Part shown: piece by piece, positions 18,019 through 63,066 of the stretch
Numbering within the stretch: the stretch's first letter is position 1
Layout of the letters: each line of letters begins with the position of its first letter
Assembly (NCBI GenBank): GCA_016207515.1
Contig: JACQPN010000021.1
Span: 62,001 to 126,000, forward strand
Length of the DNA: 64,000 nt
Reading direction: 5' to 3'
From: Euryarchaeota archaeon
GTDB taxonomy: Archaea > Thermoplasmatota > SW-10-69-26 > JACQPN01
The notes under the pieces: model-generated
Databases searched by the model: none
Seen by the model: only the letters and a program-made list of their open reading frames with translations
Told to the model about the DNA's origin: nothing
Translations under genes and position numbers: made by a program

Positions 18019-21000
18019 TCAAGATGCCGGACGGTACGAGACAACGATGTCGTCGACCCATGCTTGGACCGCGCTCTCCATCGTGCCGCTCCACCCGTCC
18101 GACGTTACGCCGAGTTTCCCGAGTTGGAAGCCGTCGCCTGGTTGCGCACCGGTCGTGTACGATGCGGAAAGAAGCTCTTCGCCGGCCGCGGAGAGGATCC
18201 GCATCGTCAGGAGGCGCGTCACGTTGTCGTAATCGAACGCGAACCGGTACTCGGTGTCCGCCTCGCCGACGAACTTCGCGTTGAGCCGCAGAGTGCCACT
18301 CGAGTCCCGGTACTTGAGGTAGTATTCCGGTTTCTGTCCAAGGTTCCAGTCGCGGCTCTGGTAGTGGACGGCGAGGGAGTTCCTGCCGTTCACGGCATCG
18401 GCGAGGCCCGACTCCCCGATGAAAAGCGGCACCGCGCCCTGCCAATTCCCCTGGCTGCTCGTGGCCCAGCGCGCGGAGACGTTGAAGCTTCCAGAAGATT
18501 GGTTCCATGTGCCGTTCAAAGGGTGCACGAACCGCTCGTCGCTTGGGTCCTGGCGGTCGCTTTTGAGGCCGATCCGGCCGCCTAGGATCTCCCACCCGAC
18601 GTCGCTCCAAAGGCCGTTGTTCTCCCTCACGAAACCCTCGCTGGAATCGCCGAAGGAATACGACTCCGTGGTGGCGGGACCGGATCCGTTCCCCGTCCCG
18701 TTGCCGCCCGTGCTGTTGCCTTGCGTGCCGTTGCCTTGTGTGCCGTTCCCGCCGGTGCCGTTTCCCGTCTCGTTCGACGGCGGCTCGGCGAGGATCGTTC
18801 CCACGGGGGGCGGGCGCACGAGACCGTTCTGCTCGAAATAGTTCTCGCGGATGTCGAGCGTCACGTTGTAAGCGCCCGCGCCGGAGGAGCGCATCACTCG
18901 CAGCATGTAGCTGTCGCTTGAGGCGATGAGAAGCGTCGCGGGCGCTAGCACCCAGCATCCCGCGGAGAAGCTTTCGCCCGTTATCGTGGCGGCGCCGACG
19001 CCCGCGTGGACCTGGTAAAGGAGCGGGTCGAGAGAGAGTCCTGGCGTCGGACAGACGGAGACCGAGAACCAGTCGCCGTACGCTACGCTGTTTATGAAAT
19101 AGTAATCCAACGTGTCGGACGCGTTGACGCTTCCCCAACATGCGGGACCCTCCTCGAGCGCGGGTCTTTGGCCGCTCAAGTGGCGGCCTGCTTGCCATGG
19201 ATTCGAGTTCGGAGCCTCGCCTGCCCCGCAATCGTCCGTCCGGAAGACGGTCACGTTTCGCGTAAGCTCCCCAAGGGCGGCGCCGTCTCGCGTGACGCCG
19301 GTGGCCTTGATCGAATAGTTTCCGGCGGCCGTGTAGGCGTGGGTGGGCGATAGCGGGCTCCCCGACGGTGAATAACCGGCCGCGGGGACGCGTTGCACGA
19401 CGCCGTCGCCCCAGTCGACGCTCAGGTTGACGTCCTCGTAATCGAGGTCGACCGCTGTGAAGGTGACGGGCATCGCCGCCGGGACAGGCCAGAAGGCGGG
19501 GAAGGAACCGGTGATGACGCCCGTGGGGGCGGGGGCGTTGGTCGCGTTCACGCTTACGTTGTAGATGAAATCGCCCGATGCGTTGGTCGGCGCAACGCGG
19601 ATCGTCCACGTGCCGGCGCTCGAAGCGTAATCGTGCGCGACGTTCGATATGACGGCTGGATGCGATCCGTCGGGCGCCGTCACTTCGAAGGTGGCGTTCG
19701 TCAAGTTGAATCGCAGGTGAGTCCCCGAGGGCGCGGCGTACAGGAGAAGGTCCTCCGTGTCCTCGTGGCCGACGTAGCCCTTGCAAGATGTCGTGAAGCT
19801 GCGGCCCTCGGCGGGCGCGTCCCCCGGTCCTTGGCAATCCGGAAGCGCCACCACGTCGACGGTGCGGAGGCTCCCCGTTAGCGTCCGTCCGAGGCGCGAC
19901 GTCCCGTTCGCGGTGATGCTATACGTCCCGGTCCCCGAGTAGGTGTGGTTACGCGTGTAGTTCGTCGCCCACCCCGCCCTGAACGCCGTCGGCGCCGTTC
20001 CATCGCCCCAATCGATCGTGACATCGACGTCTTCCGTGTCGAGGTCGTCGGTCCGGACAACGTACGAGACGCTCTGCCCTCTTGTCGCGGACGAGGGCCC
20101 GACGAGCGACACCGCGCCCGTCGGCTTCACGGCCACGATCGAGCCCATCGTGATCGTGTAATCGCGCGAATACCCGCCCGCGGGGTCGACGTTGATGATG
20201 TACATGCCGCCGCTTTGTGAATAATCGCGGAATACGCCGGCTAGAGGCGACCGGGTCACGTCCTCGGGGGACGTGATGTTGAAGCCCACGCCCGAAGAGA
20301 CGCTAGCGGTGACGCGCGTTCCCGGGGCGGTCTCGAAAAGGAGCTTGTCGGCGAGGTCGCCTTGGGTGCCGAGCCAGGCGTTACAGGTCCCCGTGAAGGC
20401 CTGGCCGTCCGCGGGGGCATCGCCAAGGCCGTCGTAGCAATCGCCACGGTAGGACGATACCCATGTGTTACCTGGCGATGACAGCGCCGGCACATCGTGG
20501 GAGTCGAAGGCGTTGATCCTCAAGGACCAGGAACCCCAGTATGAGTGGCCGCTCGGCGTCGTCTGGAAGTGGAACGTCGTCCCCGATGGGCCCTGTTGCG
20601 GTGTGGGCATGAGTTGGTACCCGTACGGGAAGTTGTAGTCTCCGTCGTCGCCGAACAAGACGTAGGGCCTCACCGTGTCGTTGTCGGCGTCCGTGACGGT
20701 CACGTCGAAGGATATCGGGTCACCGTCCTGGACGAACGTCGTCAGGTTCGAAAGCGCGAGCACCGGACGGGCGTTCGCGGTGACGCTCGCCTTCACCCAA
20801 TAATCGAACGGGGCGGTCGACTGGGTGTCCCACCACTCGGATGGGTAGGTGTAGCAGCTTCCGTCCCAACAGAACGTCTCGTACGCCTTGACGTCAGGTT
20901 GGCTGGGCGTCACATCGATTTTCAAGGGGCCCGCGCCCGTCATCTGGAAAGTCGTGTCGAGCACACTCGGTCCAGAGGGGCGAAGACCGAAGTCGGGGCC

Positions 21001-23565
21001 GGGGTTCGTGCTCATCGAATAACTGTGCCCCTGGATTGAGGCCTCGAGGCGCACGATGTCCGCATCGTCGGCGGCGATCTGGTAACCGTCTTTCCCATCA
21101 CCTAGGCCCCGGGTCCAGCCGTCGACGAAATGGGACGTGCAGGTCACGCCCGACGTAAGAGTCGCACGTGAGGTCGTCGAGGAGTCCGTCGAAGTCCCGC
21201 AATCCCCGCCCGTCGGCGCGGGACCGCGTGTGACTGTCAACGTGTACCTCAAAGGCCCGGGCGCCGAGACGAGTTCGATGCGGTCGATCTCGGTGGCCCC
21301 GTCGTCGTCGTAATCGAAGAACGGGACGAGCTTGTTGGTCAAGACGACCGTGCCCGAGCCTTCCTTGCGCTGGACCTCGGTGAAGTCGACCGTCCTCACG
21401 ACCCTCACCGTGCCGGGATCGTGAAGGGCGATCGTGAAGTTGAGGGGCCAATCTCGCCATACGCTCCACGAGTACGTGTCGAGTGTGTCGCCGTCCGGGT
21501 GGAGCCAGCCTACGCAAGAGACGCTAGCGTTTCCAAGCCCCGTGAACGGCAATGCGCGGGCAATGCTGCCCACGTCGCCGGAGCCGTTGCAGTCCCAGTA
21601 AGGGAACGGTCCGATCGGGCGGATGCCCGTCACGTTCAGTTCGTATTTCCCCACTTCCCCCGAGATGTGGATGGAGTAGTCTCCGGCCGGAAGCGACGGC
21701 GACTCGAGGTAGAACGTCCCCTTGTCGTTGTTCGTGACCTGGGCCTTGATCACACGCGTGGCGTTTCGTAGGACAAGCGAGGTGTTGAGGCCGTACTCGC
21801 GCTGGCTCAGAGCGAAAATGGGGCCTCCGGGGGAATGGAACTGGTAGTCGTCCGCGTCCGCGGGGTTGGAGCTTCCGACCTCGTGGATCACGCCGGGGCA
21901 AACGAAGGGGTAGGACACGTTCAACGGCTCATCGTCGCCCGTATGCACACCCGAAAACTCGCCGACGTCGCGCCCCGTGTAGCAGTCGAACTCGTCGAAC
22001 GGGCTTCGCGCGATCGCGAGGTCGAAACGGCCCGCTTCTCCATTCGGCGAATGCTCGCCGACGCCGATGATCGCAAGGGTGTGGATACCCGCCGAGGGGG
22101 CCGCCGCGAAGGCGACCTTGCCCCCGTCCTGCCCCGGAGCCTCGAAGTGCTCGACGAGGCTCCCGTTCGGCGAGTAGAAATCGATGTCGACGTCCGTGAT
22201 GTCGCTCGGGTCCCACGTGAGCGTGAAGTCGAGGCGGTCGCCGCGGTCGAGGTCCAACTTGAACGCGTCGACGTCGTCGCGTGCCGTCATCGTGATGTCG
22301 CACGAAAGCGTCGCGCCGTTCGCGACCGTGATGAGCGTCGCGTTGGAGCGAAGGTTCGGGCCGTCGACACCGGTGCCACAGTCGTCTTGCGTCGCGGGAT
22401 CGAAGGCGTACACATCCACTTCGTAATCGCGCGACCCTTCGATGACCGCGGTCCAGTCGCCGCCCGAATCGGCGGTGAACTCGAAGCCGGAGAAACCCTG
22501 CTCCGCGACGTAGAACGCGTCCATCCGCTCGGTGGCGGTCGGGTCGAAAAGGCGCACCGAGGTCGCGCCCGATGACGCCCTCGCAACGATCTTGTCGCCT
22601 GCATCCACGCCTATGGTGTACGAATCCGAGGTCTCGTTCCCACGGATGAAACCGAAGCAGGTCGTGTCCGCTAACGTTACCCCCGTCCCGTCGCCGTCGA
22701 ACCCCTCGCCCGGGCACCAGCGGTGCGCGTTGAACGCATCCGGGAACCATTCGTGGCGCATCTGGTAGTCGAAGAAGGTGCCGCTCACGTGGTCCACCTC
22801 GACCACCACCCGCGCGGCCCTTTGCGCCCGGAACCCGATGTCGCCGGTTATCCCAAAGATCAGCGGCCTTGTGACGAGAAGCGTGCCGTTCCAGTCCCAA
22901 AGGCGCATGACATACGAACCGTCCGCGCCGCCCGCAACGATGAGTTTCGGGTTGATCCACTCGAACGGCAGCATATCGATGCGGTAGAAGTCGCGCGCAT
23001 CCCAAGTGTCGGTACGGCCTGTGCAGGTGCTCGAGCCGAAGGCAAGCGCGATGGGCGCCGAGCTACGAAGGAAGCTTCCCGCGTCGACACCGCCCGTGAG
23101 GCAATCCGTCTGTACCGGGTCGTTCACCGCGACATCCAAGGAATACGCGCCGGAGCCGCGAATGATCACCACTTGGTCGCCCGTCTCGCCCGCCACCGCC
23201 TCGACGCCCATCCCACCGTGCACGTCCAACGCGTCGGTCGCGTCCATCTCGGCGCCTGACGGGGAAAGGAGCGTCACGTTCGAAACACCAGTCGCACGCA
23301 CCGTAACGCGCTCTCCCGCGGTCGCGCTGAATTTGTACGCGTCCGCGTCGTCGATCGGATCCATCTCGCCGCCGCACGTCGTCGGCGTCGAGATGAGCGC
23401 GGCTGTGGAGGCGTCGGGCCCGGCATCGACGCCGCCGGCACAAGCATCATCAGCGGCCGACGCAGGAAAAGGAAGCGAAGAGGCGAGGAGGAACAAGACT
23501 AGAAGGAGGGCGTCCGCCCGCCTTCCCAAGACTCCCGCTTGATGCCGTCCCGTCGCCCGCTTCAT
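18019..23565 (-). CDS. very large secreted surface protein with repeated Cys modules, PKD domains and a C-terminal lectin-like domain
   Basis: The 1848-residue protein begins with a signal peptide (LLLVLFLLASSLPFPASA). Its body repeats a module of 100-180 residues, each opening with a cysteine-glycine-aspartate signature such as DACAGGVDAG, DCLTGGVDAG, DDCGTGVDGPN, FDCYTGRDVG, GDCYDGLGDAP and PDCQGPGDAP, resembling bacterial pre-peptidase C-terminal (PPC) domains. Two PKD domains are clear (VTIDWGDGTAP with NHTYSGTGTYS; LSVDWGDGVVQ with THAYTAAGNYS). A linker near residues 1595-1631 is made of repeated NGT/NST sites for N-glycosylation. The last ~220 residues look like a concanavalin-type jelly-roll domain. 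There is no PGF-CTERM tail or transmembrane helix at the end, so anchoring is unclear. A structural or adhesive role is inferred. Confidence 0.85.
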   Translation of the reverse strand: MKRATGRHQAGVLGRRADALLLVLFLLASSLPFPASAADDACAGGVDAGPDASTAALISTPTTCGGEMDPIDDADAYKFSATAGERVTVRATGVSNVTLLSPSGAEMDATDALDVHGGMGVEAVAGETGDQVVIIRGSGAYSLDVAVNDPVQTDCLTGGVDAGSFLRSSAPIALAFGSSTCTGRTDTWDARDFYRIDMLPFEWINPKLIVAGGADGSYVMRLWDWNGTLLVTRPLIFGITGDIGFRAQRAARVVVEVDHVSGTFFDYQMRHEWFPDAFNAHRWCPGEGFDGDGTGVTLADTTCFGFIRGNETSDSYTIGVDAGDKIVARASSGATSVRLFDPTATERMDAFYVAEQGFSGFEFTADSGGDWTAVIEGSRDYEVDVYAFDPATQDDCGTGVDGPNLRSNATLITVANGATLSCDITMTARDDVDAFKLDLDRGDRLDFTLTWDPSDITDVDIDFYSPNGSLVEHFEAPGQDGGKVAFAAAPSAGIHTLAIIGVGEHSPNGEAGRFDLAIARSPFDEFDCYTGRDVGEFSGVHTGDDEPLNVSYPFVCPGVIHEVGSSNPADADDYQFHSPGGPIFALSQREYGLNTSLVLRNATRVIKAQVTNNDKGTFYLESPSLPAGDYSIHISGEVGKYELNVTGIRPIGPFPYWDCNGSGDVGSIARALPFTGLGNASVSCVGWLHPDGDTLDTYSWSVWRDWPLNFTIALHDPGTVRVVRTVDFTEVQRKEGSGTVVLTNKLVPFFDYDDDGATEIDRIELVSAPGPLRYTLTVTRGPAPTGGDCGTSTDSSTTSRATLTSGVTCTSHFVDGWTRGLGDGKDGYQIAADDADIVRLEASIQGHSYSMSTNPGPDFGLRPSGPSVLDTTFQMTGAGPLKIDVTPSQPDVKAYETFCWDGSCYTYPSEWWDTQSTAPFDYWVKASVTANARPVLALSNLTTFVQDGDPISFDVTVTDADNDTVRPYVLFGDDGDYNFPYGYQLMPTPQQGPSGTTFHFQTTPSGHSYWGSWSLRINAFDSHDVPALSSPGNTWVSSYRGDCYDGLGDAPADGQAFTGTCNAWLGTQGDLADKLLFETAPGTRVTASVSSGVGFNITSPEDVTRSPLAGVFRDYSQSGGMYIINVDPAGGYSRDYTITMGSIVAVKPTGAVSLVGPSSATRGQSVSYVVRTDDLDTEDVDVTIDWGDGTAPTAFRAGWATNYTRNHTYSGTGTYSITANGTSRLGRTLTGSLRTVDVVALPDCQGPGDAPAEGRSFTTSCKGYVGHEDTEDLLLYAAPSGTHLRFNLTNATFEVTAPDGSHPAVISNVAHDYASSAGTWTIRVAPTNASGDFIYNVSVNATNAPAPTGVITGSFPAFWPVPAAMPVTFTAVDLDYEDVNLSVDWGDGVVQRVPAAGYSPSGSPLSPTHAYTAAGNYSIKATGVTRDGAALGELTRNVTVFRTDDCGAGEAPNSNPWQAGRHLSGQRPALEEGPACWGSVNASDTLDYYFINSVAYGDWFSVSVCPTPGLSLDPLLYQVHAGVGAATITGESFSAGCWVLAPATLLIASSDSYMLRVMRSSGAGAYNVTLDIRENYFEQNGLVRPPPVGTILAEPPSNETGNGTGGNGTQGNGTQGNSTGGNGTGNGSGPATTESYSFGDSSEGFVRENNGLWSDVGWEILGGRIGLKSDRQDPSDERFVHPLNGTWNQSSGSFNVSARWATSSQGNWQGAVPLFIGESGLADAVNGRNSLAVHYQSRDWNLGQKPEYYLKYRDSSGTLRLNAKFVGEADTEYRFAFDYDNVTRLLTMRILSAAGEELLSASYTTGAQPGDGFQLGKLGVTSDGWSGTMESAVQAWVDDIVVSYRPAS

Positions 23566-25606: not shown

Positions 25607-25626
25607 CTTTGGAGGTATCGTGGGCC

Positions 25627-26781
25627 GTGGTCGATTTCCGCCTGAACGAACAGCATCTTGCGATCCAACGGATGGTCCGGGACTTCGCCGAAAAAGAGAT
25701 CAGGCCGGTCGCAAAACGCATCGACAAGACGCGCGAGTTCCCGTGGGCGACCGTAAGACGCGCCGGCGAGCTTGGCCTCATGGGGGTCGCGATCCCGGGC
25801 GAATGGGGTGGGGCGGGAGCGGACACGATATCGTACGCGATCACGGCGGAGGAGATGACGCGCGTATGCGCGACCCACGCGACCATCCTCGGCGCGAACA
25901 ACAGCCTCACGTGCGGGCCCATCCACGCCTTCGGCACCGACGACCAGAAGGAGAGGTACCTGAAACCGCTGGCTTCGGGGAGACACTTGGGCGCCTATTC
26001 GCTCTCGGAGCCCGGTTCGGGTTCCGATGCGGCGAGCCTCACCACCACGGCTCGACAGGACGGTGGCTCCTACGTGTTGAACGGCACGAAGAGTTGGGTG
26101 ACGCTCGGCCCCGTGGCGGACACGATCATAGTCTTTGCGACGCTTGATCCGAGACTGGGCGCCAAGGGCATCTGCGCTTTCATCGTGGAAAAGGGGTTTG
26201 ACGGCCTCAAAGCCGGCGAGCCCGAGCACAAGATGGGGTTGCGGGCGAGCCCGACGTCGAACCTGTTCTTCGAGGACTGTCGCGTGCCGAAGGAGAACCT
26301 CCTGGGCCGCGAAGGGGAAGGTTTCAAGATCGCCCTCGCCACCCTCGACAGCGGCCGGGTCCTCGCGGCCGCGGGCGCGATCGGAATCGCCCGGGCGGCG
26401 CTCGAAGACTCGGTCGCCTACGCTAAGGAACGCAGGCAGTTCGGGCGCCCGATCGGCGATTTCCAGGCGATCCAATGGATGCTGGCGGATATGGCCATGA
26501 ACATCGAGACCGCCCGGATCATGTGCCACAGGGCCGCGTGGCTCAAGGACCAAAAAGTGCGCTTCACGAAGGAGGCTTCCATCGCGAAACTGTTCGCGAC
26601 GGAGATGGCCACGCAAGCGTGCCTCAAGGCCGTACAGATCCACGGCGGGATGGGCTACACGACGGAGGCGAACGTCGAGCGTTACCTTCGCGACGTGAAG
26701 GTCTGGGAGATATTCGAAGGGACGAGCGAGATCCAGAGGATGGTAATAGCAAGGCAATTGGGGCTCCCGCAGGAAGCGTAA
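25627..26781 (+). CDS. acyl-CoA dehydrogenase (FAD-dependent)
   Basis: The 384-residue protein has the usual length and all family parts: N-terminal helical domain (RMVRDFAEKEIRPVAKRID), the FAD-binding signature YSLSEPGSGSDAASL, the middle beta-domain, and the C-terminal domain with QIHGGMGYTTEANVERYLRD and the catalytic-glutamate motif FEGTSEIQRMVIARQLG. It oxidises an acyl-CoA to the 2-enoyl-CoA and passes electrons to an ETF, as in fatty or branched-chain amino acid breakdown. The GTG start has GGAGGT ten bases upstream. It is divergent from the AOR gene, and the two may share a promoter. Confidence 0.94.
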   Translation: MVDFRLNEQHLAIQRMVRDFAEKEIRPVAKRIDKTREFPWATVRRAGELGLMGVAIPGEWGGAGADTISYAITAEEMTRVCATHATILGANNSLTCGPIHAFGTDDQKERYLKPLASGRHLGAYSLSEPGSGSDAASLTTTARQDGGSYVLNGTKSWVTLGPVADTIIVFATLDPRLGAKGICAFIVEKGFDGLKAGEPEHKMGLRASPTSNLFFEDCRVPKENLLGREGEGFKIALATLDSGRVLAAAGAIGIARAALEDSVAYAKERRQFGRPIGDFQAIQWMLADMAMNIETARIMCHRAAWLKDQKVRFTKEASIAKLFATEMATQACLKAVQIHGGMGYTTEANVERYLRDVKVWEIFEGTSEIQRMVIARQLGLPQEA

Positions 26782-26908
26782 GTGAGCTTCCCCGTCTGAA
26801 AGCCTCTTTTCCGCAAAGCGCGTCCGCGCGAACCTTGATTCGCGACGTCGTATGAAATTGTCCAAGTGACGGACGACTCATATTGAATCGCCACAAAAGG
26901 TTTTGAAG

Positions 26909-27011
26909 CCGCGACAACTTCCGATGTTGGTCTGACCGCATTCGCGGCCAGATCTCGGATAGGCACCCAATCTCCAGCAACAGGTACGGCAACACCTTTC
27001 GACTGGGTGCC
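26909..27011 (+). ncRNA. candidate structured RNA element, unit 0 (5' limit uncertain)
   Basis: After the acyl-CoA dehydrogenase gene there is a stretch of ~1.3 kb (26782-28091) without a credible gene. Its first structured piece has CCGCGA (26909-26914) pairing with TCGCGG (26942-26947) around a CAAC/GTTG hairpin. Then comes the signature tail hairpin: GGCACCCA (26962-26969) pairs with TGGGTGCC (27004-27011) and encloses CTCCAGCAA and a small hairpin AGGT-ACGGCAAC-ACCT. A T5 run follows at about 27014. The 27-nt core at 26971-26997 is identical to 27612-27638. No clear promoter was found for this unit. Confidence 0.5.
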
Positions 27012-27168
27012 ATCTTTTTCTGCGGTAGGGGCACCTTTGGGACGCGCAAGAAAGCTGGACCAAAAACGCGGCCCCCTTGGGGCCGCGGGCCCGCCTTCGC
27101 GCCTTTGGACCTATTGGGGCCAGCGCTCGGCGCGCCTTGCATCCTAGCGGGTTAGTACGTACTTATAC

Positions 27169-27345
27169 GTATATGGAAAACTCGTGGTCCGCTGTTTTCC
27201 GGGAAGAAATGGGGCCCGGGTCGGCCCTAAAACGCAACAGGTCGGCAACACTTCGTTGGAGGCGAAGCGATCGAGGGGGAGGCAAGGCCCGACTCGACAA
27301 GAGATATTCAACGCCTCACACCTTAAGGTTTGTGGCAAATATCGC
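27169..27345 (+). ncRNA. candidate structured RNA element, diverged unit without the tail hairpin
   Basis: A TATA-like ACTTATACG (27170-27178) is followed by GGAAAAC/GTTTTCC and GGGCC/GGCCC pairings. Then comes the core GCAACAGGTCGGCAACAC (27234-27251), enclosed by AACG/CGTT. Hairpins CTTCG/CGAAG, GAGGC/GCCTC and the palindrome ACCTTAAGGT follow. The core matches the other units, but the CTCCAGCAA tail is missing. It is the weakest member of the set, and its ends are guesses. Confidence 0.3.
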
Positions 27346-27480
27346 AACTTAGGTTGAGATTTAGTCGAATGGTCGGCGATCCAACTAGTGTTTAGCGAGA
27401 GAACTCATGTAGAACCGGTCGGGCGATGCAACCCCAAAGTAACCCGCGCCGGTTACATTCGAATAGAAACTCACCAAACT

Positions 27481-27670
27481 CCTTTTTATCCCCTAAGCGT
27501 AACTGGTATTGCCGGCCCCGGTGACTGCGGTCACCTTGGTCGCGCGGACTTCGGTCCGCTTCGACGGACGGCAACCCGTCGGAAAGAGTTATCACGGGGG
27601 GAACCCGCGACTCTCCAGCAACAGGTACGGCAACACCTAACAATCGTTTCGGGTTCCCCCCAACCTTTTT
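27481..27670 (+). ncRNA. candidate structured RNA element, unit 1, with own promoter and terminator
   Basis: A TATA box CCTTTTTATC (27481-27490) follows a segment that is also present before unit 2 (ATTCGAATAGAAA ... CCAAACT). Predicted structure: TTGCCG (27509-27514) pairs with CGGCAA (27569-27574) and closes two hairpins, GGTGAC-TGCG-GTCACC (27520-27535) and GCGGAC-TTCG-GTCCGC (27544-27559; a stable UUCG tetraloop). A tail hairpin with a perfect 12-bp stem (27596-27607 with 27650-27661) encloses CTCCAGCAA and GGT-ACGGCAAC-ACC. A T5 run at 27666-27670 completes a terminator-like end. No reading frame explains these pairings. Confidence 0.6.
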
Positions 27671-27850
27671 CCCGCCTAGCGGCGGCAAAAAACTTGACCA
27701 AAAATGGGTCTCGGTCGTGAAACACGCCGGCCCCCCCTGCCGATCCGCAGTTTTCCACGCTGAGGCGCCCCGTGCCGAAGGGGCGTACAAGGCGCCTTTA
27801 TGAACCCCCAACCGTGGCACAGCGGATTCGAATAGAAAGTTCCCAAACTT

Positions 27851-28063
27851 CTTTTAATACTCCGCGAGAACCCATGATAGCGGGTCGGGAGCGGCGAAAG
27901 CCGCGACCAAGGGGACGCGAGTCCCCGACGGCAACCCCGCAAATGAGACTCGGTCGGCAACACCGCTTCTCACGAAGGCACGCAAAACAAACGGACACCC
28001 GAACTCTCCAGCAAAGACGGTCGGCAACACCTCTTCGCTTTTTTCTGGGTGTCCAAAACTTCT
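27851..28063 (+). ncRNA. candidate structured RNA element, unit 2, with own promoter
   Basis: A TATA box CTTTTAATAC (27851-27860) follows the same leader segment as in unit 1. GCGGG (27880-27884) pairs with CCCGC (27936-27940) and closes two hairpins with GNRA tetraloops: GCGGC-GAAA-GCCGC (27891-27904) and GGGGAC-GCGA-GTCCCC (27911-27926). A third hairpin is TGAG/CTCA plus CGGT-CGGCAAC-ACCG (27944-27972). The tail hairpin GGACACCC/GGGTGTCC (27993-28000 with 28047-28054) encloses CTCCAGCAA and AAGA-c-GGT-CGGCAAC-ACC-TCTT. The layout equals unit 1 while stem bases differ, as expected of a conserved RNA fold. Confidence 0.6.
27990..28063 (+). repeat. 74-bp direct repeat, left copy (tail of RNA unit 2)
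   Basis: These 74 bases are identical to 30606-30679. They contain the whole tail hairpin of RNA unit 2 and a T6 run. Sequence on both sides differs beyond the last matching base. The two copies bracket the regulator, the secreted protein and the lipoprotein. Confidence 0.9.
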
Positions 28064-28091
28064 GGGCGAGGGGCACTTCTCCTTCGGCCAA

Positions 28092-28295
28092 TCACGCGCG
28101 ACGGTCAGCGTTTTCTCTGCCACGTTCCGGCACCCATCGGACTTTTCGAAGGGTGACGTTGCCCTGGTAGACTTCAAAATAGACGTAGTCGCCGACCGCA
28201 GCGTCCAACAATGACATGATCTCGGAGGGGAGCGCCACGCGATTCTGTCGATCGATGAGACGGGGCTTCGGTTGCGTGGCGGTCTTTCGCGACAC
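28092..28295 (-). CDS. AbrB/SpoVT-like swapped-hairpin DNA-binding protein
   Basis: The 67-residue product has the AbrB/MazE-type pattern: RLIDRQNRVALPSEIMSLLD, then VGDYVYFEVYQGNVTLRKV. In this fold two chains form a swapped-hairpin barrel that binds DNA; members are transition-state regulators or antitoxins. The GTG at 28295 (SRKTATQPKPR) is chosen because a TATA-like AAATAAAAAC lies about 31-45 nt upstream on the minus strand. No toxin gene is obvious next to it. It is divergent from the secreted cysteine-rich protein gene, with inverted repeats in the space between. Confidence 0.75.
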   Translation of the reverse strand: MSRKTATQPKPRLIDRQNRVALPSEIMSLLDAAVGDYVYFEVYQGNVTLRKVRWVPERGRENADRRA

Positions 28296-28325
28296 AAGCT
28301 GGCGGCACCACCCCCGGCGCTTTGT

Positions 28326-28367
28326 TTTTATTTGTGGAAAGTTATTTACCACAATTCCACATTGTGG
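28326..28367. promoter_or_regulatory. divergent promoter region with inverted repeats
   Basis: The A/T-rich segment between the AbrB-like and secreted-protein genes has TATA-like sequences for both strands (TTTTTATTT near 28325-28333 for the minus strand, GTTATTTACC at 28341-28350 for the plus strand). CCACAAT-TCCAC-ATTGTGG (28349-28367) is a perfect 7-bp inverted repeat, and TGTGG (28333-28337) can also pair with CCACA (28349-28353). These are good candidate operators for the adjacent regulator. Confidence 0.5.
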
Positions 28368-28451
28368 GGTTGGGTTTGGAATCGGAGGTGGGCCGGCAGG
28401 CTGGCGTCCTTTCCTGGCAACGCCACCTATTCCAATCCAGGAAGCGAAAAC

Positions 28452-28937
28452 ATGAGACACGGTTGGAAATCGGTAACGGCGTTGGCAGTGATCGTGAGCA
28501 TGAGCGGAACCGGCCTGGCGGGCGTATCGGGTGCGGTCCAGAAGCTTTCGCCCGAAATGCCGGAAGGGCCCATCGAAGTTCCTGAACTCGTCGTCACCAT
28601 GGGAACGAACTGCGTCCTCACTGAATGCGTGACGCTAAGCAAGAGTCACTGGGGATCATTCTGGAATTCGTGCCCTGGCTACCCCCAACTTGGTACGTGT
28701 TGGTCGCCAATAAATATCGCCGGATACGGGTTTCACAAAGGAGCGGTCGCCGGCATGGGAGAGGTGAGGAACGGTTGGGGCGCAGTGAACACTTGCACGT
28801 TCACCTCCGTATGGGGCTGCAATACCATGGCTAAGACCACATTGCCAGTGGTCGACGCAGGCGTTTGTTGGTTCGTGAGCGGCGCTACATATGGTCTAGT
28901 CATCGTTGCCGGCACGCCGGTTCAGGATTGCAGCTAG
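28452..28937 (+). CDS. small secreted cysteine-rich protein, unknown function
   Basis: The 161-residue protein has an N-terminal signal peptide (SVTALAVIVSMSGTGLAG). After it there are eight cysteines, in pairs: TNCVLTEC, NSCPGYPQLGTC, NTCTFTSVWGC, and single cysteines in AGVCWF and the end VQDCS. The even number in an exported protein suggests four disulfides. It is rich in G, T, W and V and has no motif I recognise. GGAAG lies about nine bases before the ATG. An 8-bp G/C hairpin follows the stop (28948-28968). Codon use is less GC-biased than in neighbouring core genes, which fits a transferred gene. A secreted peptide toxin (halocin-like) is one speculation. Confidence 0.7.
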   Translation: MRHGWKSVTALAVIVSMSGTGLAGVSGAVQKLSPEMPEGPIEVPELVVTMGTNCVLTECVTLSKSHWGSFWNSCPGYPQLGTCWSPINIAGYGFHKGAVAGMGEVRNGWGAVNTCTFTSVWGCNTMAKTTLPVVDAGVCWFVSGATYGLVIVAGTPVQDCS

Positions 28938-28947
28938 TGTTCTCGAG

Positions 28948-28968
28948 GGGCGGGGATAAACCCCGCCC
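28948..28968 (+). terminator. hairpin after the secreted-protein gene
   Basis: GGGCGGGG (28948-28955) pairs perfectly with CCCCGCCC (28961-28968) around an ATAAA loop, 11 bases after the stop codon. There is no long T run after it, so termination is inferred. Confidence 0.45.
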
Positions 28969-29029
28969 AATCCCTATTATGTGACAAGAAACGCTATCAG
29001 ACGCAAGTGCCACCTTTCATGAGAAGGAG

Positions 29030-30547
29030 ATGGTCGCGATCCATAGAATCAAGGGCACGAAACAAAATCGTCCCTATCGTGCCCTCACATCAAGCGTCTC
29101 CGCCGCAGTCTGCGTGGTTCTGCTTCTGGGCATCGCCGGATGCATAGTTCCTTTCTCGGAACAGTCCCAGGCGCTCGATCCGCAGCCGGCTAAAGGATGG
29201 GAGTGGAAGGAACTCGATACCGGGGCCAGGGCTTCGTACAAAGTGATGGAACAAGGAAGGAGAACCGGTTCGATGAACGTGAGCATTGAACCACCGACCA
29301 CCATTCATCCTCCTGACGGAGCCCCCCTTGAGGCGGTGCCGATCGTCTTCCAACATTTTGGAAACGGAACATCCTCCACCGCCGTTGTCTATGTCTCGCG
29401 AACGTCAGGGAAACTGCAAGCGTTCCTAAAACCATGTTCAGTAATGCAAACGGTCGACGGCTTGGAATGTTTCCCGCTCCGAAATCTACTCTTCGCAGGA
29501 CGCGACTCTCCACCGCCGTACATGATTGGAGCGCTTGACGCCTTCGAATCCCCGCCCTCCGAAATTAAAGTTCAGGTTTTCGAGAATGGAAAACCCCGGG
29601 ATCAACGGGTTCAGTTAGCGGAGGTCACTGGCCAATCCGGCTCGGGTGCATGCTGGCGCCTATCGCCATCTCAAGGATGGATTAGCGAAGATCGCTTCGG
29701 CATATTGTTCTCCGTTCCGTCCCTCGTTGATTTCTGCCCGCCAACGCCTTTTCCCCGCCGAATAGAGCACCCGATCGCGGGCCTCTTGTATGACTTGGAA
29801 GCCTTCGAACCCGGTACAGGTTCTAAGGCGTACGCATGGAGCGGTGGCCAGGTAGTCGAAGGTCGCGTGGATGGCGAATATGATAGTGTGGGCGTTCTTC
29901 CGCCGACAGGTCAGCGCTCAATCGGAAACATAACGATTGAAGAGGCGTACGATTACGCGCGTGGGAACGACCAGGCGTTTGCGGCCTTTCTCGATAGCCA
30001 CCCAAAGGCACGCCTTCGTGGGTCATTGGGTAATCCGCCGGGGGGTGGTGCGGTCCTGCCAGCGCCTGCACCTATAGGGAACCAAACTCTGGAACAGGGG
30101 TTTCAAATAGGAATCGATTTTTCGGAGCCCGGAGCAAGAGAGTTCTATCACATCCAGGTGCAAAAGACCCGCAATGCTGCGAAAATGGACGTCCTCAGCG
30201 TGACGGAGTCACAAGCGAGGATGGGCGCCGTGCCGGCGCCCCGCGATTTGACCTCCTCGCACCGGACCATCGCGAACAGTTTCGAGGCCGCCGCGAACAT
30301 CATTGGAACCGAATTCCAATGGCTTACGGTCCGGAGCTCCGTTGCCGTTCGTGGACAGGAAGGTAGCGAATTGCCCCTCGACGACCGCTATCATTATGAA
30401 TTTTTTTTCCAGGGCTTCTCTTCCACCGGGGACGCAGCGGCCGGCATACAATTTCCCGCGAGCGTGATCGTGGATTCGCGCACAGGTGCCATCGTGCGAG
30501 TGATTGGCCCGGTTTCCAGCATCGAAAAGATGGTGCCGGTGTTTTAG
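29030..30547 (+). CDS. lipoprotein of unknown function
   Basis: The 505-residue protein has a long N-region and a lipoprotein signal (AAVCVVLLLGIAGC), followed by a mainly beta-predicted extracellular body with few cysteines. I recognise no family. The motif GNQTLEQGFQIGIDFSEPG and several aromatic YHYEFFFQGF strands suggest a two-domain beta protein. It is on the same strand as the secreted cysteine-rich gene, about 90 bases after it, and both lie between the two 74-bp repeats. A role in immunity to, or attachment of, the secreted protein is possible but only inferred from position. Confidence 0.7.
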   Translation: MVAIHRIKGTKQNRPYRALTSSVSAAVCVVLLLGIAGCIVPFSEQSQALDPQPAKGWEWKELDTGARASYKVMEQGRRTGSMNVSIEPPTTIHPPDGAPLEAVPIVFQHFGNGTSSTAVVYVSRTSGKLQAFLKPCSVMQTVDGLECFPLRNLLFAGRDSPPPYMIGALDAFESPPSEIKVQVFENGKPRDQRVQLAEVTGQSGSGACWRLSPSQGWISEDRFGILFSVPSLVDFCPPTPFPRRIEHPIAGLLYDLEAFEPGTGSKAYAWSGGQVVEGRVDGEYDSVGVLPPTGQRSIGNITIEEAYDYARGNDQAFAAFLDSHPKARLRGSLGNPPGGGAVLPAPAPIGNQTLEQGFQIGIDFSEPGAREFYHIQVQKTRNAAKMDVLSVTESQARMGAVPAPRDLTSSHRTIANSFEAAANIIGTEFQWLTVRSSVAVRGQEGSELPLDDRYHYEFFFQGFSSTGDAAAGIQFPASVIVDSRTGAIVRVIGPVSSIEKMVPVF

Positions 30548-30605
30548 CGCGAGTGATCCGGGTGCGAATCGCGCGTCGGAGAAACGGGATGGTAGTATCT
30601 TTCCG

Positions 30606-30679
30606 AACGGACACCCGAACTCTCCAGCAAAGACGGTCGGCAACACCTCTTCGCTTTTTTCTGGGTGTCCAAAACTTCT
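30606..30679 (+). repeat. 74-bp direct repeat, right copy
   Basis: This is identical over 74 bases to 27990-28063, including the GGACACCC/GGGTGTCC stem, CTCCAGCAA and GGT-CGGCAAC-ACC. Here it has no promoter or 5' structured part; it follows the lipoprotein stop by about 60 bases and precedes the end of the convergent gene. It may be a recombination footprint or a copied terminator. Confidence 0.9.
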
Positions 30680-31541: not shown

Positions 31542-31970
31542 ATGGCAAAGGGCCTATACTCGGGTCGTAAACTCAAGACGGACAGGGCGAGCCTCCAGTG
31601 GAGCGACAGGTACTACAAGCGCCGCACGCTCCGTCTCAAGCAGAAGTCTGACCCGCTAGGTGGCATCCCCCAGGCCCGCGGCATCGTCATCGAAAAAGTT
31701 GGCATCGAGGCAAAGCAACCGAACTCCGCCATCAGGAAGTGCGTGAAGATCCAACTCATCCGGAATGGCCGCACGATCACGGCGTTCGCGCCCGGCAACG
31801 GTGCGATAAACTACATCGACGAACACGACGAGGTGCTTGTCGAAGGTATCGGCGGCCGCATGGGCCGTTCGTACGGCGACATCCCCGGCGTGCGTTACAA
31901 GGTCATCAAGGTCAACAACGTGTCGCTCCTTGAACTCGTTCGGGGACGCAAAGAAAAACCGATGAGGTGA
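31542..31970 (+). CDS. rps12: 30S ribosomal protein uS12
   Basis: The 142-residue protein is archaeal uS12, a decoding-centre protein. It shows the N-terminal [15 protein letters not shown], the conserved loop [19 protein letters not shown], and [21 protein letters not shown]. The ATG at 31542 gives the family N-terminus. The rps7 start lies five bases after its stop, and EF-2 follows, the usual str-operon order. The rpo genes, rpl30e and nusA that often precede it in archaea are absent here. Confidence 0.97.
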
Positions 31971-61914: not shown

Positions 61915-63066
61915 TCAGATCTCCCCGTGCGCCCGGAGCACGCGGCGAAGAACCGGCAGGAAGCGTTTGAGCGCCGGGCGCATCACGTGCGGCATGACGG
62001 TGATGCGCAGTCCCACGGTAAGATTGGCCGGTGTGAGGAGCCACCCTTTCCTCTTCAGCGCGTCCCGTACGACGCTCGGCCGCTTCACGCGAAACGTGAC
62101 GATGTTGAGGACCGGCGGTGTCGCGAGTCCGACGCCCATCGCCTGGAGTTCGCTTGCGAGGAAGCGGGAATCGGCGATGCACGTCTTCACCACTTTCCGG
62201 TAGCCTTCGACGCCCAGGTGCTCCATGACGGCGTATGTCGCCGCGGAGGCGGCGCCCGGTCTCGTCCCGCGGATGGTGGGTTGCCTTTTGGTCGAGACGT
62301 ACGGCGTCTCGGTCCCGATGAGGTCGATGTCCGCGCCGTCGCGCGCCGCGAGAAATCCGGACGGGATGGGCGCCATCCCCATCTTGTGGCCGTCGACGGC
62401 GATGGTCGAGACGCCGCCGTTCTTGAAATCGAAGGCCGGGCAGGCAACGTCGCGCGGCAGGAACGGGATCACGAAGCCGCCGAAGGAGGCGTCGACGTGA
62501 AGGTGGACGCCGGCCGCGGATGAGATCCTCGCGAGTTCCGGGATGTCGTCGACTGTGCCGAGTTCCGTCGTCCCCGCGATGCCGACGATCGCCGCGGTCT
62601 CTCTACTCACCAGTTTCCGGACCGCTGTCGTGTCCACGGTGAAATCGGTCCCTACGGGTGCCGTCACGAGCGTGAGGCCGAGGTAATCGGCGACCTTGTT
62701 GAAGCTGAAGTGCGCGGTCTCCGGGACGATGACCTCCCGTTTTCCGCTGCGTTTCGTGGCGATGCGCAGCCCCGTGAGGTTCGCATCGCTTCCCCCCGAG
62801 GTCGGCGCGGCCCACCCGGCCGCGGGGGCGTTGAGCATCCGAAGCACTCCCCGCAAGGCCTTCACCTCGATCTCGGTGGTCCCCGGATGCAAGTGCGGGT
62901 CGCCCATGTTGGTCTCAAGGAAGGCCCCGTACGCGGCGACGGCGATGGGGTGGGGAGCGGTGCACATCGAGCCGAGGATGCGGCCCGACCGGAAGGTGTG
63001 GTCTTTCTTTCGGGCCCGAGCGAGTTCGGCGACGACCGATGAACGCGAGCGTCCCCTAGGTTTCAT
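61915..63066 (-). CDS. mfnA: L-tyrosine/L-aspartate decarboxylase (MfnA family)
   Basis: The 383-residue group II PLP decarboxylase has GRILGSMCTAPHPIA, NMGDPHLHPGTTEIE, TSGGSDANLTGL, HVDASFGGF and the PLP lysine in VDGHKMGMAPIP (Lys228). In methanogens MfnA makes tyramine for methanofuran; in other archaea the homologue decarboxylates aspartate to beta-alanine for coenzyme A. No methanogenesis gene is present, so the aspartate role is more likely here. It is upstream of dph2 in one operon. Confidence 0.9.
   Translation of the reverse strand: MKPRGRSRSSVVAELARARKKDHTFRSGRILGSMCTAPHPIAVAAYGAFLETNMGDPHLHPGTTEIEVKALRGVLRMLNAPAAGWAAPTSGGSDANLTGLRIATKRSGKREVIVPETAHFSFNKVADYLGLTLVTAPVGTDFTVDTTAVRKLVSRETAAIVGIAGTTELGTVDDIPELARISSAAGVHLHVDASFGGFVIPFLPRDVACPAFDFKNGGVSTIAVDGHKMGMAPIPSGFLAARDGADIDLIGTETPYVSTKRQPTIRGTRPGAASAATYAVMEHLGVEGYRKVVKTCIADSRFLASELQAMGVGLATPPVLNIVTFRVKRPSVVRDALKRKGWLLTPANLTVGLRITVMPHVMRPALKRFLPVLRRVLRAHGEI

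Follow-up and report, generated by a model that had tools for sequence, protein, structure and literature searches.

Archaeal intergenic small RNAs (sRNAs), such as Methanosarcina sRNA162 and the Haloferax sRNAs, have TATA promoters of their own and fall in a size class similar to that of the RNA described here. To our knowledge, covariation supports few stand-alone archaeal RNA families other than guide RNAs, RNase P, and SRP RNA. A review (PMC5867862) describes what archaeal sRNAs do as still poorly understood. E. coli CsrB carries 22 GGA motifs and sequesters its regulator, CsrA, via these repeated sites (PMC7652899).

Here, we describe a family of archaeal RNA genes that has a narrow distribution and whose structure is well supported, and we put forward a mechanism for it as a proposal. 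Like CsrB and CsrC (or RsmY/Z), its members are stand-alone RNAs in which one short motif appears in several hairpins, and they have sibling copies. Unlike these, the RNAs are archaeal, and the many GGA loops of the CsrB/Rsm type are absent; the repeated loop is (A)CGGCAAC, present one to three times per RNA rather than 22, with two copies (unit 0 and G2a, below) having a single one. The family also resembles the archaeal intergenic sRNAs in its intergenic position and its own TATA promoter, but differs from them in its covarying structure, in a 3' loop that stays constant across taxonomic families, and in its tandem copies at this locus.

The window, meaning the whole 64,000-nt stretch of DNA that was analyzed, covers positions 62001 to 126000 of contig C21 of a 2.67-Mb host genome (G000) matched by archaeal 16S and 23S models, whose owner may belong to the Thermoplasmatota. 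The RNA region, a gap at 26.9-28.1 kb, is bordered by an acyl-CoA dehydrogenase (ACAD) gene and by the S12-S7-EF2 genes. A first-pass annotation had placed here a cluster of at least three, and probably four, diverged units of a structured RNA that matched no class known to it. Repeats, folds, and homologs bear out the cluster, and repeat analysis agrees with the positions given for units 1 and 2; the count comes to three RNA genes (units 0, 1, and 2), with a decayed fragment near 27233. In the list below, R2 is a model built from the members' own sequences with linkers trimmed by hand, so that its scores for these members are by construction; the relative G2b, which was left out of the model, scored 23 bits.

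25609-26781, + strand: acyl-CoA dehydrogenase gene (Pfam), 5' border of the RNA region
26925-27020, + strand: unit 0 RNA, from its fold; R2 match at 26963-27010, 72.4 bits; 5' end uncertain
26971-26997, + strand: core loop of unit 0, TCTCCAGCAACAGGTACGGCAACACCT, the same as in unit 1 and in the copy on contig C17 of genome G002
27233-27254, + strand: decayed partial copy, CGCAACAGGTCGGCAACACTTC, of the CGGCAAC-type repeat family, with no fold better than shuffles
27458-27489, + strand: promoter of unit 1, with TTCGAATAGA at 27458-27467 and the TATA box CTTTTTAT at 27482-27489
27512-27672, + strand: unit 1 RNA, from its fold (z = -3.67); R2, 47.9 bits
27612-27638, + strand: core loop of unit 1, from repeat analysis and R2
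27827-27859, + strand: promoter of unit 2, with TTCGAATAGA at 27827-27836 and the TATA box TTTTAATA at 27852-27859
27880-28063, + strand: unit 2 RNA, from its fold (z = -2.85); R2, 37.8 bits
28005-28031, + strand: core loop of unit 2, TCTCCAGCAAAGACGGTCGGCAACACC, from repeat analysis and R2
30606-30679, + strand: copy of the tail alone, matching 27990-28063 at all 74 nt
31545-31970, + strand: rpsL (uS12; Pfam Ribosom_S12_S23), first gene of the S12-S7-EF2 cluster; start codon at ~31545, the mechanical open reading frame start being 31428

Each unit has variable hairpins at its 5' side and a constant hairpin, the tail, at its 3' side. Unit 0 consists of the hairpin GGUCUG.CCGC-AUUC-GCGG.CAGAUC, then the tail, with arms GGCACCCA (26962-26969) and TGGGTGCC (27004-27011), and then the T-run ATCTTTTTC. 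Unit 1 opens with GGTGAC-TGCG-GTCACC (27520-27535) and GCGGAC-TTCG-GTCCGC (27544-27559), continues with CGACGG-ACGGCAAC-CCGTCG (27562-27581), and closes with the tail (27596-27607/27650-27661) and a T-run. In unit 2, the hairpins GCGGC-GAAA-GCCGC (27891-27904) and GGGGAC-GCGA-GTCCCC (27911-27926) are followed by ACGGCAAC at 27928-27935, the hairpin TGAGA..GGT-CGGCAAC-ACC..TCTCA (27944-27972), and the tail (27993-28000/28047-28054). Some details of the earlier description need adjusting. It had a closing stem around two hairpins in units 1 and 2; such a stem (GCGGG/CCCGC, around the GAAA and GCGA hairpins) is possible in unit 2, though absent from the minimum-energy fold, and in unit 1 the corresponding GGCC/GGUC stem encloses the first hairpin only. 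Likewise, the GGT-CGGCAAC-ACC hairpin assigned to both units is found in the third hairpin and the tail of unit 2, but the third hairpin of unit 1 is built on CGACGG/CCGUCG around ACGGCAAC. The tails of units 0 and 1 contain AGGU-ACGGCAAC-ACCU.

Unit 1 (z = -3.7) and unit 2 (z = -2.9) folded more stably than dinucleotide shuffles, as did two relatives (z = -3.3 and -4.9); of 200 shuffles, at most one matched units 1 and 2 in fold energy. Unit 0 alone had modest fold stability (z = -1.4), and the stretch around 27233-27254 did not fold above shuffle level (z = +0.9). A 23-nt repeat, GCGCAAGAAAGCTGGACCAAAAA, lies behind both units 0 and 1 (27044-27066 and 27682-27704; 78% alike), which points to an ancient duplication in tandem that took in sequence downstream of the unit as well.

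The loop of the tail always carries UCUCCAGC[A/G]A, 5 to 7 nt, CGGCAACACC, and is nearly invariant across the six distinct copies known to us (three here and three in relatives), one change being GCAA to GCGA in the second strand of the copy in genome G001. The 27-nt core is 100% identical between 26971 and 27612. The closing stem, in contrast to the loop, varies in sequence while pairing is kept, and is 8 to 12 bp long in each distinct copy. When the six distinct tails are taken together, pairing holds at 47 of 48 inner-stem positions, and at least two types of pair are seen at 7 of the 8 positions; with arms exchanged between copies, pairing is 54%. A stem of at least 8 bp occurs at the tail geometry in five of the six copies, the sixth having 10 of 11 pairs; at random sites with the same geometry, the probability of such a stem is 0.0057. 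The first-pass annotation had read these stems as differing in sequence with pairing preserved, and had named a lack of covariation as the finding that would count against it. Covariation is what we observe, in a set of six distinct sequences that falls short of R-scape-grade statistics. A protein-coding reading of the core was also considered and rejected, given the gap of 5, 6, or 7 nt and the compensatory stem changes.

An Rfam match, the other finding named as adverse, did not appear either: the whole window gave no match at the gathering score (Rfam 15). At E values up to 5, the RNA region gave a single spurious match, on the other strand (E = 0.6), and the homologs gave none at E values up to 2. 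No Rfam guide-RNA match was found and no H/ACA or C/D boxes were seen by eye. Searching the text of papers on archaeal RNA for the loop sequence returned nothing.

The three relatives are RNA genes from the same archaeal order but from two further families (one in G001 and two, G2a and G2b, in G002); with the three units here, the order thus has six distinct homologs spread over three families. The exact core occurs four times in the host genome, all at this locus by whole-genome search, and twice in G002, and the G001 copy was found by a sequence-only model (E = 1.7e-6). Carriers make up three of the five genomes of the order that were searched, with no match in G003 (76% complete) or G004. 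No copy turned up in the four remaining genomes of the class, nor in the rest of a set of ~390 genomes from the phylum, and a hairpin model recovered no further convincing member among the seven genomes of the class that were searched. Matches near E = 1e-4 elsewhere in the phylum (G172 and G019) look like one coding gene in both genomes, not the RNA. Exact-core matches in an 85k-genome collection and a viral collection, which may omit records near the host genome, were scattered and coding-like, with none archaeal by title; a search of a plasmid collection gave no match.

Units 1 and 2 each have a TATA box behind the same leader text, as had been noted before (a 33-nt match starting at 27457 and 27826, 85% identical). 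The element TTCGAATAGA, ~15 nt 5' of the TATA box, is common to units 1 and 2 and the G001 copy, and is a probable activator site; in G2a, a comparable position is taken by CGAACAGA. Unit 0 has a weak TATA-like box, TTTTGAAG, near 26899. There are four TTCGAATAGA sites in the host genome, two of them at this locus, and one in G001, at the RNA. The third site in the host genome was rejected as an RNA promoter, as it lies inside a NUDIX-like reading frame; the fourth is intergenic (L170, at about locus position 1501 on contig C2 of G000) and lacks a suitably spaced TATA box. The L170 site follows a ScpB-like gene, is itself followed by GC-rich sequence, and might mark a further RNA gene.

T-rich 3' ends lie behind most tails. 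A 3' hairpin with a T-run resembles an attenuator, so that the RNA could act in cis on the gene behind it, as a leader, riboswitch, or attenuator, and the G001 copy does precede rpsL. However, the next downstream gene is not a co-directional coding gene in four of the six distinct copies, nor behind the 30606 duplicate: unit 0 is followed by unit 1, unit 1 by unit 2, and unit 2 and G2a by convergent genes. In G001, the RNA ends before rpsL, which has a TATA box of its own there. Because most copies lack a co-directional gene downstream, we read the units as stand-alone RNA genes, and a leader function is very improbable. Considering the structure, promoters, and arrangement, it is very likely that this is a real, stand-alone, and previously uncatalogued family of archaeal noncoding RNA.

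The neighborhood raises a possible link to the ribosome. The S12-S7-EF2 cluster is near the RNA in three genomes. The G001 copy is flanked by ACAD and rpsL, all on one strand, just as in the window, and this shared arrangement suggests that the place between the two genes is the ancestral site. Of the two copies in G002, one is on the opposite strand to rpsL at a distance of ~6.7 kb, and G2b is on another contig than rpsL. The core might imitate the 530 loop of 16S rRNA (CCAGC..CGGUAAUACC), bind uS12 or a biogenesis factor, and regulate the rps12 operon, a reading that the proximity to rpsL (directly upstream in G001) and a visual similarity to host h18 would favor. Same-sense local alignment to host 16S was nevertheless no better than for shuffles (P = 0.42 to 0.94), and alignment to 23S was likewise at shuffle level (P = 0.45 to 0.61). 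Together with the rpsL TATA box in G001 and the separate contigs of G2b and rpsL, this makes such mimicry improbable. The RNAs share the vicinity of rps12 with ribosomal-protein leader RNAs that mimic rRNA, but differ from these in having their own promoter, a T-rich end, no significant rRNA similarity, and copies far from rps12; no mimicry of an rRNA site was found, and copies other than that of G001 are not directly upstream of rpsL.

Besides the tail core, a second motif is shared. CGGCAAC repeats start at 27240, 27566, 27952, 28019, and 30635, and as a loop, (A)CGGCAAC is carried on unrelated stems: CGACGG/CCGUCG in unit 1, CGACCCG/CGGGUCG in G001, UGAGA/UCUCA in unit 2, and AGGU/ACCU in the tails. 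There are two such loops in unit 1, three in unit 2, and two each in G001 and G2b. The motif is predicted to be mostly unpaired in these hairpins, the exceptions being the first copy in unit 2 and G2b; G2b is without the inner GGU/ACC hairpin. From its letters, (A)CGGCAAC can be read as a GCAA tetraloop with a closing G-C pair and an (A)C bulge beneath it, a form visible in the predicted unit 2 fold. A CGGCAAC hairpin inside rpsL (31793) was set aside, since codons for APGNGA explain it and neither G001 nor G002 retains the loop.

As identical loops recur on interchangeable stems, the loops may be what a partner sees. We propose that each unit would be transcribed as an independent noncoding RNA gene under an archaeal promoter (TATA box plus TTCGAATAGA), yielding variable 5' hairpins, mostly with stable-tetraloop caps, before the constant 3' hairpin and T-rich end. 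The working parts would be the (A)CGGCAAC loops and the tail strand UCUCCAGC[A/G]A, displayed on unrelated stems, and copies of the same loop would bind one cellular partner in trans. This partner would most probably be an RNA-binding protein that is titrated or gathered, and less likely a set of mRNAs, and tandem duplication near the rps12 operon would have raised the RNA dose in the host species. This overall reading, of a trans-acting ligand with repeated loop sites, is close to an even call, leaning slightly toward doubt; that the RNA is a decoy or scaffold for a single protein that binds RNA is a more tentative step; and an archaeal counterpart of CsrA/CsrB, in which a multivalent RNA serves a sequence-specific protein recognizing (A)CGGCAAC, is an unlikely extension. 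Compared with classical sponges, the repeated loops are few, and the small number of distinct copies, the missing inner GGU/ACC hairpin of G2b, and the weak promoter of unit 0 also count against the decoy or scaffold reading.

Alternatively, the RNA could act in trans as an antisense sRNA, with its C-rich loop strands (UCUCC and ACACC) pairing with Shine-Dalgarno regions of mRNAs. Anti-Shine-Dalgarno-like CUCC and CACC do lie within the loops, and there is archaeal precedent in sRNA162, which targets a trans-encoded mRNA (PMC3510493; reviewed in PMC5867862). In a search for exact complements only, TTGCTGGAG before ATG was not enriched in the host genome (3 sites, versus 12 for the reversed control), and GTTGCCGT before ATG exceeded its control also in G003, G005, and G006. 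Because the latter genomes lack the RNA, coding bias explains the excess, and we consider antisense pairing doubtful. The defined loop motif, natural variants, and conserved promoter element would make pull-down and loop-mutant work directly interpretable, and the family could expose a sequence-specific archaeal RNA-binding regulator.

The copy at 30606 reported earlier is a real repeat, but it duplicates the tail of unit 2 only. With 27990-28063, it brackets positions 28064-30605 as a direct repeat. This segment is ~57% GC, versus 60 to 66% in most neighboring gene windows, and the RNA-bearing gap is likewise ~56 to 60% GC. It holds genes for two exported proteins without a Pfam match and a possible AbrB/antitoxin-like gene (28092-28460, - strand; weak, E = 0.063). 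The bracketing of a 2.5-kb, lower-GC segment could indicate that the repeats are a DNA element, such as a recombination site or palindromic repeat, rather than RNA. Here, though, it is the loop that is conserved and not the arms, whereas REP-type repeats show the reverse; promoters and T-runs keep one orientation; and no integrase, transposase, or recombinase was recognized within the segment or beside it. An element that targets an RNA gene at its 3' end would account for the duplicate as well, and we regard a DNA element as very unlikely. Insertions at tRNA genes use, and then regenerate, the gene 3' end; by analogy, the segment resembles an insertion that used and regenerated the 3' end of the RNA gene. 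Elsewhere in the window, an exported protein of 1,848 aa is predicted on the minus strand (18019-23565), with a low-complexity Gly/Asn/Thr-rich stretch near its C terminus.
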